A stretch of 23,404 nucleotides of DNA. Source: a virus. Position 1 is the stretch's first letter. The number at the start of each line of letters is the position of its first letter. The position numbers were made by a program, and so were the translations under genes. The notes under the pieces are model-generated. The model had not been told where the DNA came from and did not search any database. It saw only the letters and a list, made by a program, of their open reading frames with translations. The stretch spans positions 1 through 23,404 of IMG/VR virus record IMGVR_UViG_3300035698_005834; one strand, given 5' to 3'. Below, one piece after another: positions 3,968 through 23,000 of this stretch.

Positions 3968-4630
3968 TTATCCGCGCGCTTGCTCAAGTAGTTCTATTAA
4001 TTTATCCGCGTATTGTTTGTAGGCCTCTATCCTTGCCCTTATCGATACTGCTGATGCTGCTGATGCTGCTGATGCTGATGCTGACCATGACGATGCCGCT
4101 GCTGCTGATGCTGCTTCTGCTGACCTTGCTGGCGATGCTGCGGCCGGCGCTGCTGCTGATGCTGCTGCTAACCTTGCGCTTCTCCACTCGTCGTTGGTTA
4201 CATCACCTCTTTTGTGTAAAGCAATCACGTCTTTAATCGCCGCCGCAATCTCGGGGTATTCCTCAATATCAAAGTTATGGAATAGCCCCTCAAGTATAAA
4301 TATCATAAATGGTTGCTTAACATTTTTATCAAACTGGCCCTCGGTCACACCTAAAGGAATAGCTTTAAGAAAATTCTCAGGCCATACCATCGCATCCTTT
4401 TGCTCCATACCTTCAAATAAGCTATCTTCAAGATGAGCCAGCCATTCAGGTATTCCCAATTCAATAGGATAACTTTCATGGGTGTAGGCTTCTAGTGTGC
4501 AACCAACCGCGCAGCCCTTTCCTTCTTCCCACCCAGCGCCTTGTATAATATTATCAGCCTTGCGATGTGCGATAACACGGTTAACGTGCTTGTCTTTAAC
4601 TTCTTGATCGTTATGAAATGCTTGTAACAT
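3968..4630 (-). CDS. Phage early protein with Ala/Ser low-complexity tract
   Basis: This 220-aa protein has a conserved-looking globular part (residues 1-150: MLQAFHNDQEVKDK, GKGCAVGC, ELGIPEWLAHLEDSLFEG, WPENFLKAIPLGV, TNDEWRSAR). It is followed by an Ala/Ser-rich tract (about 155-195) and a short helical tail. I recall phage and bacterial proteins with this same globular part followed by variable AAADAA or AAWAA tracts, so the family is probably widespread but of unknown function. The tract would form a long alanine helix. Start and stop are coupled to neighbours: ATG 4630 overlaps the previous stop (TAATG), with AAGGAT before it. Tract length may vary between relatives because its DNA is repetitive. 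Confidence 0.75.
   Translation of the reverse strand: MLQAFHNDQEVKDKHVNRVIAHRKADNIIQGAGWEEGKGCAVGCTLEAYTHESYPIELGIPEWLAHLEDSLFEGMEQKDAMVWPENFLKAIPLGVTEGQFDKNVKQPFMIFILEGLFHNFDIEEYPEIAAAIKDVIALHKRGDVTNDEWRSARLAAASAAAPAAASPARSAEAASAAAASSWSASASAASAASAVSIRARIEAYKQYADKLIELLEQARG
4046..4168. repeat. Trinucleotide-rich tract (GCT/GAT repeats on + strand)
   Basis: The plus strand is made of near-repeats of GCTGATGCT, most regular at about 4045-4080 and looser to 4168, read as Ala/Ser codons on the minus strand. The unit is 3 and 9 bp, so gain or loss keeps the frame. Such tracts vary by polymerase slippage. Confidence 0.7.
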
Positions 4631-5019
4631 TATTTATATCCTTTTTGAGTTTTCTCAAAAGTAACGCGAGCAACTCTGGCGCTTGAGTCCCTACCTAGCC
4701 CCCAATGTGGGTCAATTTCACGGCGAATATTGTATCTGTCCGTATTGCAGGAACCTGTATTAAAGGCGCCTGTGTTGCAGTCACCTGTATTGTTGGCACC
4801 TGTGTTGCAAACTCCTTTGTTAATATATTCGGTGAATAGGCTCTTTCCCCTACATTCATTGAATAGCCATTCCGCCCAATCTCTATGACCATCTGCCACA
4901 AGACCATCAACGGCACTCTTTAAATCCTCGCCCTTAGGAAATAGCTGGCAGTACCTCTTGTAGAAATATGGACAAGGATCCCATGATATGAGTAGTTCGT
5001 GTGTGATTATCTTTGTCAT
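4630..5019 (-). CDS. NTG pentapeptide-repeat phage protein
   Basis: A 129-aa protein. Residues 1-65 form a globular N-terminal part (ELLISWDPCPYFYKRYCQLFPKGEDLKSAVDGLVADGHRDW..). Residues 67-96 hold six tandem five-residue units ending in NTG or NTD (VCNTG, ANNTG, DCNTG, AFNTG, SCNTD). The tail is unrelated (HWGLGRDSSARVARVTF). Such xNTGx repeats match the second class of pentapeptide repeats, which fold as a right-handed beta helix, though six units make only about one and a half coils. Relatives with a varying number of units are common in phages and bacteria; function unknown. Both ends are coupled by TAATG overlaps. Confidence 0.72.
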   Translation of the reverse strand: MTKIITHELLISWDPCPYFYKRYCQLFPKGEDLKSAVDGLVADGHRDWAEWLFNECRGKSLFTEYINKGVCNTGANNTGDCNTGAFNTGSCNTDRYNIRREIDPHWGLGRDSSARVARVTFEKTQKGYK

Positions 5020-5452: not shown

Positions 5453-5558
5453 ATCATCATTCCTTGGGCTGTTAATTAACTTAGCCACTTTAAGTAGGGC
5501 TTTGTTCAATAAATGACTTAATAGCAATAATATATTAATAAGAGGTTAATGGGTCATT

Positions 5559-5960: not shown

Positions 5961-6003
5961 GAGGGATAGGTAACTTTTAAAGTAGAAATAGTGGAGAGTG
6001 ATG

Positions 6004-6510
6004 ATGAGTGAAGAGGTAATTGATTTTAGGAAAGACATAAAGAATCCAAACAGTGCTTTGTACTGGCTCTCCAAACAATTTGATGTTGATATTAACTTTA
6101 ATAGAGCTAAAGAGGGTGATGTTCTCAGGAATTATGACGAAACACCCTTAACCACTTATCTGCGTAGGCGGTATATTAACCAGCAAGAATATGACGCGGG
6201 TATGTATATAGCCAAGCTGTTTCAAATAGTGCGAGCCAACCCATGCAAGACAATGAATTTTGATAAGTTCCTTCATGGAGTAAGGGGAAATAGTGATCCT
6301 GATTATATCAGTCAAAAAGATGAAGAGTTGATAAAGATAATGAGGGATGTAGGAAGTGAATCTGCACGCATATTGATACATGTTTGTTATTCGGGGCATC
6401 ATATGAGCTCTTGGTGCAAGCAGGAGAACTTTGCTAAAGAGGCTGCAACCCCCCTATTAAGGGTGGCGTTGAGGTCTGCTGATAGCGCCATTGGATCATT
6501 ACGCTCTTAA
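6004..6510 (+). CDS. DUF6456-like protein, candidate late-gene regulator
   Basis: I use ATG 6004 (seven bases after GGAG); ATG 6001 and GTG 5998 are alternatives. The product is 168 aa. Residues about 45-165 resemble the alphaproteobacterial DUF6456 pattern: TPLTTYLRRRYINQQEYDAG, then an MNFDK segment, then a G-E-A-R-ILIHVC core followed by a Cys-bearing loop, and a closing AATPLLRVAL helix. This is from memory of the family, not a search. No clear helix-turn-helix or zinc site is seen. The gene is alone on its strand, sits directly before the late promoter and its leader terminator, and precedes all packaging genes, exactly where lambda Q lies. A role as antiterminator or activator of late transcription is inferred from that position. 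Confidence 0.7.
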   Translation: MSEEVIDFRKDIKNPNSALYWLSKQFDVDINFNRAKEGDVLRNYDETPLTTYLRRRYINQQEYDAGMYIAKLFQIVRANPCKTMNFDKFLHGVRGNSDPDYISQKDEELIKIMRDVGSESARILIHVCYSGHHMSSWCKQENFAKEAATPLLRVALRSADSAIGSLRS

Positions 6511-6539
6511 TATATTTATGATTTAGTCATTTTTTGTTC

Positions 6540-6569
6540 TTGACTTGACTCTGAATCAGATGCTATAAT
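6540..6569 (+). promoter_or_regulatory. Late promoter
   Basis: TTGACT (6540-6545), an 18-bp spacer and TATAAT (6564-6569) give 5/6 and 6/6 matches. The predicted start is near 6576. The spacer contains the palindrome TCTGAATCAGA (6550-6560), a plausible protein site. It is the only strong promoter seen for the 15-kb late operon. Confidence 0.8.
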
Positions 6570-6603
6570 ATGTTCATACTTAAGAAGTATGCCTAGGTAT
6601 ACC
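6550..6603. promoter_or_regulatory. Palindrome cluster at the late promoter and start site
   Basis: Three kinds of dyad occur within 54 bp: TCTGA-A-TCAGA (6550-6560) in the promoter spacer; CATACTT-AAG-AAGTATG (6575-6591), a perfect 7-bp dyad at the predicted +1; and the overlapping CCTAGG (6592-6597) and GGTATACC (6596-6603). They could be operators, or the second could fold as a hairpin at the 5' end of the transcript. Confidence 0.5.
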
Positions 6604-6664
6604 AATTAGGTTTCAATAGTTTCACTCAAGGTCGTTACCGTTCATTCGGTTGCGGCCTTTTTTT
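6576..6664 (+). ncRNA. Predicted short leader RNA of the late operon
   Basis: Transcription from the predicted start near 6576 to the terminator ending at 6664 would give an RNA of about 89 nt with a possible 5' hairpin (6575-6591) and a 3' terminator hairpin. It has no reading frame of note. By layout it resembles the 6S leader RNA of lambda, made when the late antiterminator is absent. This is a prediction from promoter and terminator only. Confidence 0.5.
6628..6664 (+). terminator. Strong intrinsic terminator in the late leader
   Basis: Left arm 6628-6640 pairs with right arm 6647-6659: twelve of thirteen positions pair (two of them G-T) with one T-T mismatch, around the loop TTCATT, and seven T follow from 6658. 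It lies after the late promoter and before the first late gene, so late expression requires read-through or antitermination. Confidence 0.85.
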
Positions 6665-6680
6665 ATTTCAGGATTTAGTT

Positions 6681-6878
6681 ATGTGTCTATTTGGTGAAGT
6701 TAATCACCCAGCTTTGCATTATATAAATGATGCCTATATCTCTGCGTGTGGAAGAGAAGATGATGATGCACACTATAGAAGAGAGCGCATTTTCCCATAC
6801 GGGAGACAGTACATTTATGGCGAAGTACCGTCAAAAAAATATTTAAAAGGAGAAGATAATGCCAACATTAGAGATTGA
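6681..6878 (+). CDS. 65-aa hypothetical protein, first late gene
   Basis: The start is ATG 6681 with AGGAT upstream, just after the leader terminator. The product (MCLFGEVNHPALHYIND...) is hydrophilic, with many Asp, Tyr and Arg residues and no membrane or zinc motif. Small MCLFGE- or MCFGG-starting proteins are common at the head of phage structural operons, but I cannot assign a role. Its end overlaps the next gene by 20 bp, so the two are probably co-translated. A head-related or packaging accessory role is inferred from position alone. Confidence 0.65.
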   Translation: MCLFGEVNHPALHYINDAYISACGREDDDAHYRRERIFPYGRQYIYGEVPSKKYLKGEDNANIRD

Positions 6879-7155
6879 TGAATATAGTGGTGCAGCAACC
6901 GTCAATGGGTCCACTGTACCTGTTTATTCATACCCTATTACAACCCAAAAGATTACTACCTCAGCTTCATCACAGAGATCATCTGCCCTAAATGTAGATA
7001 CACGTATTTGCTCATTAAAGGCTGTGGGTGGTAACTTACGCGTGGCCTTCGGGGGCGAGCCTACAGCATCAACCTCAACTAAATTACTTTCGACGAGCGA
7101 GGTGTATGACATTGCTGTTAAGGGTGGTGATAAAATAGCGGTAATAGATGCGTAA
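6859..7155 (+). CDS. Small beta-rich virion-associated protein
   Basis: 98 aa with an excellent AAGGAG site 7 nt before ATG 6859. The N-terminal half is Ser/Thr-rich. The C-terminal half (residues 50-98) has the pattern LKAVGGNLRVAFGGEPTASTSTKLLSTSEVYDIAVKGGDKIAVI, cut here for length, typical of small phage beta-sandwich proteins that recur near terminase or capsid genes (a xVAFGxxPxAxxxS motif). It is probably a minor capsid or decoration component; this is family memory and not proven. Its stop overlaps the terminase small subunit start (TAATG). Confidence 0.65.
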   Translation: MPTLEIDEYSGAATVNGSTVPVYSYPITTQKITTSASSQRSSALNVDTRICSLKAVGGNLRVAFGGEPTASTSTKLLSTSEVYDIAVKGGDKIAVIDA

Positions 7156-7460
7156 TGGCAGCAAGAAAAACAAAATTCCTAACAGATGAACACCGCCAAA
7201 AGATCAAGGTAAGTATGATCATTAATCGTTTGAATTCATTTGTAGAAGGTGAAGTAAAAATGGAAGGGCCTCAAGTAACTGCTGCTCTTGGGCTACTCAA
7301 GAAGGTATTGCCTGATATGCAAGCAACACAGTTATCGAATGACCCTGATAATCCTTTAATGCCAGTCATATCAAATAAGCCTTTAACGAAGCAGGAATGG
7401 AATGAACGGTACTCAAGTGATATGGGCTCCACAGGAGGGGCCACAGAAAGCACTGATTGA
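7155..7460 (+). CDS. Terminase small subunit-like protein
   Basis: 101 aa, starting in a TAATG overlap. The N-terminal part (FLTDEHRQKIKVSMIINRLNSFVEGEVKMEG, then PQVTAALGLLKKVLPDM) is the helical pattern of short podophage small terminases, which recognise viral DNA and load it onto the large subunit: a basic region, a MIINRL helix, and a QVTAALGLLKK helix. The tail is loose and polar. The large-subunit gene begins inside its last 59 bp in another frame, a strong sign of paired function. It is shorter than the P22 small subunit (162 aa). Confidence 0.75.
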   Translation: MAARKTKFLTDEHRQKIKVSMIINRLNSFVEGEVKMEGPQVTAALGLLKKVLPDMQATQLSNDPDNPLMPVISNKPLTKQEWNERYSSDMGSTGGATESTD

Positions 7461-8877
7461 TTGTCCTTTCACTGAGATATTCTTTGGAGGCGCTAGAGGC
7501 GGTGGAAAGACAGATGGTGTACTAGGCAAGTGGGCTCTCAAAGAGCAGAAGTATGGTGCAGATTTTAATGCCATTATGTTTAGACGTACTACGGTTTCAT
7601 CTGATGATGCGATTCAAAGAGCTAAAGAAATATACTTGCCCTTGGGTGCTGAATACGTAGATAAAGCAGGCGGCACATTTAGAATGCCTAACGGTGGCAG
7701 GGTTTCATTTAGATATCTGGAAAATGAAGATGATGCCAATGAGTATCAAGGTAGAAACCTAACAGATGCATGGGTAGAGGAAGTGGGGCAATATGCCTCA
7801 AGTGCAGCTATTGATATGCTATTTGGGGTGCTGCGCTCTGCTAAAGGGGTGCCAGTTCAGTTGATTCTTACCGGAAACCCGGGTGGAGTGGGGCAGCATT
7901 GGATTGCCCAGAGGTATGGTTTAATCCCATTCCCTAAGGGGCCACAGATTTTGTCTAGGGATTTACCTAATGGGAGCGTCCATCACTTTGCGGTTATACC
8001 GTCACGCATTCAAGACAACAAGATATTGTTGCAGGGTGATGCGGGTTACATGGATCGCTTGTATATGGTTGGCGGTGAAAGCTTAGTTAAGGCATGGCTT
8101 GATGGTGATTGGTCAGCAATCGAAGGGGCTTTCTTTAATGGATGGTCACAAGCCAATATCGTGGAACCATTTGAGATTCCTAAGCATTGGTATAAGTACA
8201 GATCATTTGATTGGGGCTATGCGGCGCCGTTCTCTGCTGGTTGGTGGGCAATAGCCTCGGATGATTACGAGATAGGCGGTAAAACCATCCCTAGGGGAGC
8301 AATGATTAGATATCGTGAATGGTATGGCTCTAGCGCTCCAAATAAGGGATTGCGAATGGAGGCTGAAGACATAGGTCGCGGTATATTGGAGCGTGAGGTA
8401 GAGGGCGAGATAAACGGCAAGAACGTTGCGGATCCTTCCATCTTTGCGACAGATAGGGGTCCATCTATAGCTGAGAGAATGTTTAAGGTAGGTGTTAAGT
8501 GGGCAAGAGCAGATAACAAGCGTGTAGGCATTAAAGGGTTTATGGGCGGTTGGGATCAAATGAGAACCCGCATGAAGAGTTATGACATAGTGGAAGGTAG
8601 CCCAGTAAGGGTTGCTCCTATGTTGTATGTTTTTTCAACGTGTAGAGATTTTATTCGTATAGTGCCTGTTTTGCAGCACGACATGAAGAAGCCAGAGGAT
8701 TTGGATACAGAATCAGAGGATCATATTGCTGATGAGGCTCGGTATGCCTGTATGGCGCGTCCATTTATTAAGAAGTTACCAGAACCAGATAAACCTAGAA
8801 AAACGTTACATAACATTAAAGCAAGTGAAGTGTTTGCCCTTGATAGCAAGCCCTCCGTAGGACATGCACGTATATGA
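7402..8877 (+). CDS. terL: Terminase large subunit (ATPase and nuclease)
   Basis: At 491 aa this is close to P22 gp2 (499). ATPase part: Walker A GARGGGKT (30-37), Walker B LTDAWVEE (120-127, with the catalytic Glu pair), and the coupling motif LTGNP (156-160). Nuclease part: Asp270 in SFDWGY, Asp344 in VADPS, and Asp440/Asp444 in DHIADEARYA, the three acidic clusters of the RNase H-like fold. It packages DNA into the prohead and cuts the concatemer. The ATG at 7402 has AGGA five bases before it and lies inside the small-subunit gene. The end overlaps the portal start (ATGA). Confidence 0.95.
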   Translation: MNGTQVIWAPQEGPQKALIDCPFTEIFFGGARGGGKTDGVLGKWALKEQKYGADFNAIMFRRTTVSSDDAIQRAKEIYLPLGAEYVDKAGGTFRMPNGGRVSFRYLENEDDANEYQGRNLTDAWVEEVGQYASSAAIDMLFGVLRSAKGVPVQLILTGNPGGVGQHWIAQRYGLIPFPKGPQILSRDLPNGSVHHFAVIPSRIQDNKILLQGDAGYMDRLYMVGGESLVKAWLDGDWSAIEGAFFNGWSQANIVEPFEIPKHWYKYRSFDWGYAAPFSAGWWAIASDDYEIGGKTIPRGAMIRYREWYGSSAPNKGLRMEAEDIGRGILEREVEGEINGKNVADPSIFATDRGPSIAERMFKVGVKWARADNKRVGIKGFMGGWDQMRTRMKSYDIVEGSPVRVAPMLYVFSTCRDFIRIVPVLQHDMKKPEDLDTESEDHIADEARYACMARPFIKKLPEPDKPRKTLHNIKASEVFALDSKPSVGHARI

Positions 8878-13815: not shown

Positions 13816-13826
13816 GATTGGTAGGG

Positions 13827-13854
13827 AGAGGGGGAAACTCCTCTTTCTATTTTT
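13827..13854 (+). terminator. Moderate intrinsic terminator after the capsid genes
   Basis: AGAGGGG (13827-13833) pairs with CTCCTCT (13838-13844), six Watson-Crick pairs and one G-T, closed by a GAAA tetraloop and followed by a broken T tract (TTTCTATTTTT). It lies in the 65-bp gap after the decoration gene. It may partly stop transcription or protect the 3' end of capsid mRNA. Confidence 0.55.
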
Positions 13855-13880
13855 ATAAATAACTAAGAAGGGGAAGACTA

Positions 13881-21799: not shown

Positions 21800-21828
21800 T
21801 TTATACACATAAATAAGGAGGTTTGCAA
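21800..21828 (-). promoter_or_regulatory. Reverse promoter of the moron
   Basis: Read leftward, TTGCAA (21823-21828, 4/6), a 17-bp spacer and TATAAA (21800-21805, 5/6). The predicted start is near 21793, one base before the ATG. A perfect 14-bp AT palindrome (21791-21804) covers the start and -10, a possible operator. Confidence 0.55.
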
Positions 21829-21829
21829 T
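21819..21829 (+). repeat. 11-bp direct repeat, right copy (AGGTTTGCAAT)
   Basis: This copy forms the AGGAGGT ribosome-site end and the spacer of the tail-fibre gene (ATG 21828). It matches 21634-21644 exactly and is separated from it by 174 bp, which holds the reverse gene. Confidence 0.6.
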
Positions 21830-23000
21830 GGCATTTAATGGGTCTGGCGTTTTCCAACGTCTTCATAATTGGGTAAATGATGCAGCGGCGAATATCAAAA
21901 TACGTGCAGATCGTATGGATGCTGAAATGGACGGATTTGCATCTGGATTAAGCACTTGTATAACAAAAGATGGTCAAACTACGATTGCAGCTAACCTGCC
22001 AATGGCTGGCTTTAAGCATACAGCGGTAGGTGCCTCTAGTGCTAGAACGGACTACACAAGGCTAGACCAATCACAGGACGGCAAGCTTGCGTGGGCTGCG
22101 GCTGGTGGTACGGCTGATGTTATTACGGCCTCTTATGGGATCACATTAAGCGCGCTTGTGGATGGGCAGCTTTGTTATATTCGTGCAAGCGCTGCCAATG
22201 CCACTACCACACCAACGTTCTCGCCTGACGGGTTAACAGCTCGCGTGATTGTCAAAGAGGGTGGAGCGGCTCTTGTTGCTGGGGATATTGCAGGCGCAGG
22301 CCATGAGTTGATTCTGCGCTATGATTTATCAAATACACGCTGGGAGTTAATGAACCCAAAATCAGAAGTATTCACTTTAGATGATAATTCGGTGACCAAC
22401 GCTAAGCTTGCACAAGTAGATACGGCTACAATTAAAGGCCGCACAACGGCGGGCACTGGCAATGTAGAAGATTTGACGGCAACTCAAGGGCGTGGAGTGC
22501 TAGACGTTTATTCAACAGCTCAAGTTGATGCAGCGGTGGCAGCGGCTGGGATTTATAAACAAATAGTATCTAGCGTTTTAGTTACTACACCCACAGTATC
22601 CGGTGATATTCCCATTGATAATACAATCCCGCAAAATACAGAGGGGACGGAAGTATTTTCACTAGCCATTACACCTACAAGCGGTTCAAGCACACTGATT
22701 TTTGATGTGATAGTTATAGGGGATACTGATTCGACAAATTTTTTCACCAAGTTTGCACTCTTTAAAGATAGTGGCACTAGCGCAGTTGCGGCATCTCCTT
22801 TACCTCTTTTAAGTTCTACTTTTCCCAATACATGTACGGCCAGATTTATAATAGCTGCGGGCTCAACATCCGCTGCCACATATAAATTAAGAATGGGTAT
22901 CAATGGTGGTGCAAATTTCCAATTAAACGCAAATGGTGGAACGCGAATATTTGGGGGTGTTTGTCAATCAAGTATAACCATAACTGAGGTTTCAACATAA
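21828..23000 (+). CDS. Tail fibre / receptor-binding protein
   Basis: 390 aa, with a perfect AGGAGG ribosome site, pointing to high expression. The N-terminal ~75 residues (FNGSGVFQRLHNWVNDAAANIKIRADRMDAEMDGF, cited in part; TKDGQTT, ANLPMAGFKHT) are the conserved attachment domain of Bcep22-like podophage fibres that docks to the tail. The central part (90-220) is beta-rich (IRASAANATTTPTFSPDGL). VFTLDDNSVTNAKLAQVDTATIKGR (about 180-205) is the short helix/beta motif found in many trimeric fibres. The C-terminal part (240-390) is a beta-sandwich-like tip, the likely receptor contact. It ends in a TAATG overlap with the lectin-like gene. Confidence 0.85.
   Translation: MAFNGSGVFQRLHNWVNDAAANIKIRADRMDAEMDGFASGLSTCITKDGQTTIAANLPMAGFKHTAVGASSARTDYTRLDQSQDGKLAWAAAGGTADVITASYGITLSALVDGQLCYIRASAANATTTPTFSPDGLTARVIVKEGGAALVAGDIAGAGHELILRYDLSNTRWELMNPKSEVFTLDDNSVTNAKLAQVDTATIKGRTTAGTGNVEDLTATQGRGVLDVYSTAQVDAAVAAAGIYKQIVSSVLVTTPTVSGDIPIDNTIPQNTEGTEVFSLAITPTSGSSTLIFDVIVIGDTDSTNFFTKFALFKDSGTSAVAASPLPLLSSTFPNTCTARFIIAAGSTSAATYKLRMGINGGANFQLNANGGTRIFGGVCQSSITITEVST

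Follow-up and report, generated by a model that had tools for sequence, protein, structure and literature searches.

DUF6456 is the annotation carried by homologues of GafA, the activator of the Rhodobacter capsulatus gene transfer agent (GTA) (PMC9638019). The C-terminal part of GafA corresponds to GafZ of Caulobacter, for which a role as antiterminator of the GTA is experimentally supported (PMC11150451). GafZ passes terminators with NusA, NusE and NusG, and its binding element is embedded in the promoter (PMC11150451). Carriage of GafA by a phage was noted earlier for RDJL Phi 1 (PMC6363796). A phage arrangement of DUF6456 gene, promoter and terminator is not described in the DUF6456 literature that was searched; the search was limited, and absence from it is no proof of novelty.

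The window analysed here is a whole virus record of 23,404 bases. Genes before about position 5,530 lie on the minus strand and include those for a RusA-like nuclease and a Toprim/DUF3987 protein, and the virion genes lie on the plus strand from 6681 onward. The early region also encodes a pentapeptide-repeat protein (PF01469; 4630-5019, minus strand). Positions 3968-4630 (minus strand) encode a protein with a long Ala/Ser-rich low-complexity stretch and no family match, and 21828-23000 a tail-fibre-like protein that ends in a match to the Pgp3 C-terminal domain (PF05475, E 9.5e-7). The features on which the analysis rests are the following:

5993-5996, plus strand: ribosome-binding site GGAG of the regulator gene, read directly from the sequence
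6004-6510, plus strand: DUF6456 (GafZ-like) regulator gene, proposed late antiterminator (Pfam, hhalign, AlphaFold2 model)
6540-6545, plus strand: -35 element TTGACT of the late promoter
6550-6560, plus strand: spacer inverted repeat TCTGA-A-TCAGA, possible analogue of the GafZ-binding element (sequence; shuffle test, p 0.15)
6564-6569, plus strand: -10 element TATAAT, with TG at 6561-6562
6576-6664, plus strand: predicted leader RNA of about 89 nt, reaching from the inferred transcription start as far as the T run (promoter position; fold)
6578-6611, plus strand: first leader hairpin (MFE and centroid structure)
6628-6664, plus strand: intrinsic terminator, hairpin with seven T
6681-6878, plus strand: first gene 3' of the terminator, 65 aa, no family match
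7155-7460, plus strand: likely small terminase subunit gene (position directly before terL; no Pfam match)
7402-8877, plus strand: large terminase subunit gene, terL (63% identity to the annotated TerL of phage Pam5)
13824-13855, plus strand: terminator-like hairpin followed by a T-rich tail, in a gap between genes of the late operon (terminator scan)

The original prediction claimed an order of regulator gene, near-consensus promoter, hairpin with seven T and only then the late operon. This order holds in its coordinates, in RNA folding and in a pair-shuffle test. The regulator ORF runs from an ATG at 6004 to a stop at 6510 (168 aa). The promoter that follows (TTGACT-18-TATAAT, 6540-6569) matches 11 of 12 consensus bases and carries a TG one base 5' of the -10. 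Such a promoter match alone is not rare (one in the window against 0.25 expected in shuffled windows). The pair of promoter and terminator, for which the promoter had to score 11/12 or better and a terminator of -12 kcal/mol or lower had to follow no more than 130 nt on, is observed once against a shuffle mean of 0.01 (1 in 100 shuffled windows). The terminator consists of a hairpin at 6628-6659 and a T run at 6658-6664; its stem has internal mismatches. One terminator scan missed this hairpin; a second scanner and RNA folding found it. The predicted leader (6576-6665) folds with an MFE of -27.3 kcal/mol (z -4.84), which none of 200 shuffles equals. Between the terminator and terL there is no better promoter; the next plus-strand candidate reaches only 9/12 and sits inside a gene (6859-6888). 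This anatomy is shown. The transcription start near 6576 and the leader length of about 89 nt are inferred from promoter position without RNA data, and the start site, the strength of the terminator and its dependence on the regulator protein are predictions, as no RNA data exist for the record.

Two inverted repeats lie close to the promoter. The spacer palindrome TCTGA-A-TCAGA is not significant in the window (p 0.15, shuffle test). A significant palindrome of the GafZ-binding type, which the window and one relative (L091) seem to suggest, is not claimed, as 21 promoters summed gave 73 paired bases against 68 expected. A perfect inverted repeat, CATACTT-AAG-AAGTATG, spans the inferred start (6575-6591) and might be an operator or a pause-related element.

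The product of 6004-6510 is a member of DUF6456 (PF20057; E 7.8e-8, 32.9 bits against a curated cut-off of 26.3), the family of the GTA regulators GafA and GafZ, and it contains the DUF6456 domain and little else. Profile-profile comparison by hhalign of 11 phage members, this product included, with nine chromosomal GafA/GafZ domains aligns the phage proteins to the GafA/GafZ C-termini over 125 columns (98.9%, E 1.4e-17), and the product alone still matches these domains at E 9.7e-7. Control profiles that were reversed or column-permuted stay below 1% and give no match. A family search of 14 control genomes returns a match in Caulobacter only, and a GTA cluster is present in all 12 tested genomes that carry the high-scoring chromosomal form of DUF6456. 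The product has no PHROG match and no close relative in isolate phages or, by a single-sequence scan, in IMG/VR. No GafY is adjacent or fused to it, and the neighbouring ORFs of the window have no GafY-like or other relevant Pfam match.

The AlphaFold2 model of the product is made up of helices, and its pLDDT exceeds 90 for most of residues 50-75 and 100-168. Foldseek returns sigma region 4 chains (3hug) with a probability of up to 0.87 and a target TM of up to 0.80; no PDB match falls below E 0.001. The likeness to sigma region 4 is weak, and that to other phage DUF6456 proteins is clear. The claim that the protein does not resemble the Q proteins of lambda, P21 or 82 holds: DUF6456 is the sole Pfam match, with no Q family at E<=10, and the structure search, a kind of check that had been proposed, lists 50 PDB matches, none of them a structure of Q, Q21 or AlpA. 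The suggestion of an unrecognised antiterminator class holds in part; the protein is not a known Q, yet it belongs to the GafA/GafZ family.

Relatives were collected by way of terL, which gave 80 viral and 73 genomic loci, and they show that the linkage of gene, promoter, leader and terminator is conserved. With a cleaned profile and ORFs read on both strands, DUF6456 genes near terL occur only on the plus strand and only upstream of terL, in more than 20 loci. TTGAC stands at or just after the end of the DUF6456 gene in 16 of 25 loci, against 2.5 expected from shuffling and 11% at other ORF ends, and in several loci the TGA stop codon of the gene forms part of the -35. Seven of the 16 TTGAC loci also have a -10 match (1.6 expected). 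TTGAC and a terminator occur together in 10 of 14 clear slots; these 10 sites fall within 18.5 kb, whereas the other 256 kb of the same sequences hold 24 (p 6e-5). Conservation of the promoter-terminator pair with the upstream gene, which the original prediction put forward as a check, is found, and its Q-like reading of the switch is supported by an order that stays with the gene in many relatives; read-through itself is inferred.

The promoters of these relatives share further features. In nine of the ten relatives with a terminator the stem begins 39-52 nt after the -35, and 16 of 21 promoters (1.9 expected) carry a TGCG/TCGCG-like element at about +10 to +15. The window differs from its relatives in a leader about 40 nt longer and in the absence of the TGCG element. 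A -10-like element near the start is only weakly raised (11 of 35 promoters against 6.0 +/- 2.2 in shuffled sequence), and a clear pause element of the lambda Q type (-10-like at +1 to +6, with a sigma-dependent pause at about +16) is not claimed on so weak an enrichment. The -10 proper is poor in several GC-rich relatives, and a T-run terminator is missing, under the criteria used, in about a third of the gene-bearing slots. The locus counts are not fully independent, since the set includes related phages of common ancestry.

A second form of the protein (A5), shorter and more divergent, includes Pam5_65; its relationship to the longer form is supported at E 7.6e-12 and that to GafZ at E 3.9e-8. 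Pam5 (L086) is the only isolated close relative; its short-type regulator relative Pam5_65, annotated as hypothetical, occupies 37431-37970. At 38295 Pam5 has a candidate promoter, TTGACG-17-CATAAT, that carries the GATTTGCG element, and some 250 nt further on, at 38560-38581, a terminator. A Mesorhizobium ciceri prophage (L087) is another carrier of the module.

A reverse search that used no protein information recovers the same gene. The DNA pattern TTGACN{38,46}TGCGCCCGGAGC was searched in IMG/VR, and a DUF6456 gene lies upstream on the same strand within 2.6 kb in 47 of the 119 loci read, or in 38 of 60 loci when a terminator is also present. Read backwards, the pattern occurs at 36 loci in the whole IMG/VR collection, none of which has a DUF6456 gene. 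Among bacterial genomes it is no commoner than chance predicts, with 1 in 289 and 1 in 274 genomes. Several DUF6456 loci found by the pattern precede terminases of the Terminase_3, Terminase_6 and TerL_ATPase types; phages with unrelated packaging genes therefore have the whole module in common, from the gene through promoter and leader to the terminator. A TTGAC..TGCG promoter was also sought before chromosomal GTA clusters but was not convincing in nine clusters, where the published promoter differs. Across many phages among the pattern loci (L205-L320), a sequence-conserved terminator hairpin, TGCGCCCGGAGCC..AGGCTGCCGGGC-TTTT, sits at the start of the late transcript, and its sequence is conserved beyond what a terminator needs.

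Some relatives carry a different protein in this position. Six terL-related records, from at least four distinct phages, encode a NusG-domain protein upstream of terL without a DUF6456 match: L003 (ORF at about 4444-4743), L010 (3611-3919), L002 (3532-3840), L080, L012 and the record of L041. These might be phage NusG-type late antiterminators, and their place in the DUF6456 position would fit a slot for elongation regulators, a possibility that rests on small numbers. DUF6456 and NusG never occur together in 48 records; the numbers are too small for significance, and strict mutual exclusion, though observed, is not claimed.

The likely reading, held at a probability of roughly 0.78, is that the 6004-6510 product is a GafZ-class (DUF6456), Q-analogous processive antiterminator of the virion genes that acts without GafY. 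Host polymerase would initiate constitutively at 6540-6569, a strong promoter; as long as the regulator protein is absent, it would stop at the 6628-6664 terminator after about 89 nt. Once accumulated, the protein would load on polymerase at or just after the late promoter and travel along with it. Polymerase would then pass 6628-6664 and later terminators such as 13824-13855, which is inferred from sequence to be a further site that late transcription would have to pass, and read-through would reach the terminase, portal, capsid and tail genes. With a near-consensus promoter and, in contrast to Caulobacter GafYZ, no detectable GafY, activation of initiation should be unnecessary. That the protein loads at the promoter, that read-through follows and that its accumulation sets the timing are all inferred.

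Several observations weigh against an antiterminator. GafA was first described as an initiation activator that works via the omega subunit (PMC9638019). The longer leader of the window and its lack of TGCG, the non-significant palindrome, the poor -10 elements and missing terminators of some relatives, and the weakness of the sigma-4 likeness count against it as well. An unlikely rival is that the DUF6456 protein is a GafA-like initiation activator at the late promoter and that the terminator merely limits leak-through in the off state. In its favour, GafA of R. capsulatus works via RpoZ and has its binding site close to the -10 and -35 of the GTA promoter (PMC9638019), and the modelled protein has sigma-4-like helices. 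Against it, the promoter of the window is near consensus (11/12, with TG), unlike the activation-dependent GTA promoter with its weak -35, AATCAT. A terminator right behind an activated promoter would demand a second device to pass it, and in the GafYZ pair antitermination is assigned to GafZ and activation to GafY.

The antiterminator reading also has to be weighed against two rivals in which the protein has no part in read-through, both of them very unlikely. The terminator might merely end the regulator mRNA, with late genes using another promoter and the promoter-terminator pair incidental. Terminators are common behind genes, and a promoter match by itself is expected 0.25 times per window; however, nothing better than the 6540-6569 promoter lies between the terminator and terL, the same arrangement fills the same slot in relatives (p 6e-5), and a search by DNA pattern alone rediscovers the DUF6456 gene. 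Alternatively, the leader RNA might itself antiterminate, like HK022 put, or be a regulatory small RNA, leaving the protein another role. The original prediction had kept a leader RNA system open as its alternative, and the two leader hairpins (z -4.84) and the sequence-conserved hairpin common to relatives speak for it. The second hairpin, however, ends in a T run and is terminator-like, the region has no match to Rfam families, and leaders differ widely between the window and its relatives while the protein gene stays linked.

A bolder reading joins several claims, and the evidence tips only narrowly in favour of the whole. DUF6456 would be a large, unrecognised class of phage late antiterminators that work through the Z component only, with a constitutive promoter and a conserved promoter-proximal leader element, in a module that moves between terminase types; GafZ and GafA would be a domesticated branch to which activation by GafY was added. 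The antiterminator reading by itself already gives DUF6456, a widespread phage domain without assigned function, a likely role, and it predicts where the late genes of these phages switch on. It links gene transfer agents to a still-active phage switch, which makes the origin of the GafZ antiterminator testable. The parts of the phage version are a single protein, a strong promoter and, within 50-90 nt, a terminator; it should therefore be a much simpler substrate, both in vitro and for solving the structure of a GafZ-class antitermination complex, than the Caulobacter GTA promoter.

Among known systems, AlpA of Pseudomonas aeruginosa and the NusG paralogues of phages and plasmids are likewise processive antiterminators that load at promoters or bind the elongating polymerase, but they belong to protein families unrelated to DUF6456. 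The Roseobacter phages RDJL Phi 1 and 2 carry DUF6456 proteins that are GafA homologues. In RDJL Phi 1, however, the 310-aa GafA-type gene lies in the early region beside ctrA-like and DNA-metabolism genes rather than before a terminase together with a promoter-terminator pair.

The arrangement of lambda Q, pR', the 6S leader and tR', shared by the Q systems of phages 21 and 82, runs in the same succession, from the regulator via a strong promoter, a short leader and a terminator to the late genes, and its logic is inferred to be the same. The 6004-6510 product has no sequence match or listed structural match to Q proteins, and the window has no established Q-binding element or sigma-dependent pause. 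The DUF6456 switch is inferred to work like the lambda Q switch, but within the Pfam and PDB comparisons it is not detectably descended from Q.

The GafZ/GafY pair of Caulobacter crescentus and GafA of Rhodobacter capsulatus share with the phage protein the DUF6456 domain and, by inference on the phage side, control of a head-tail cluster past terminators, with a proposed promoter-linked loading. The phage protein differs in standing alone, without GafY. Its promoter is strong, whereas the GTA promoter depends on an activator and on IHF, and its terminator lies within about 90 nt of the start, whereas that of the GTA follows the first gene. Unlike GafYZ, the phage regulator is encoded beside its own target.
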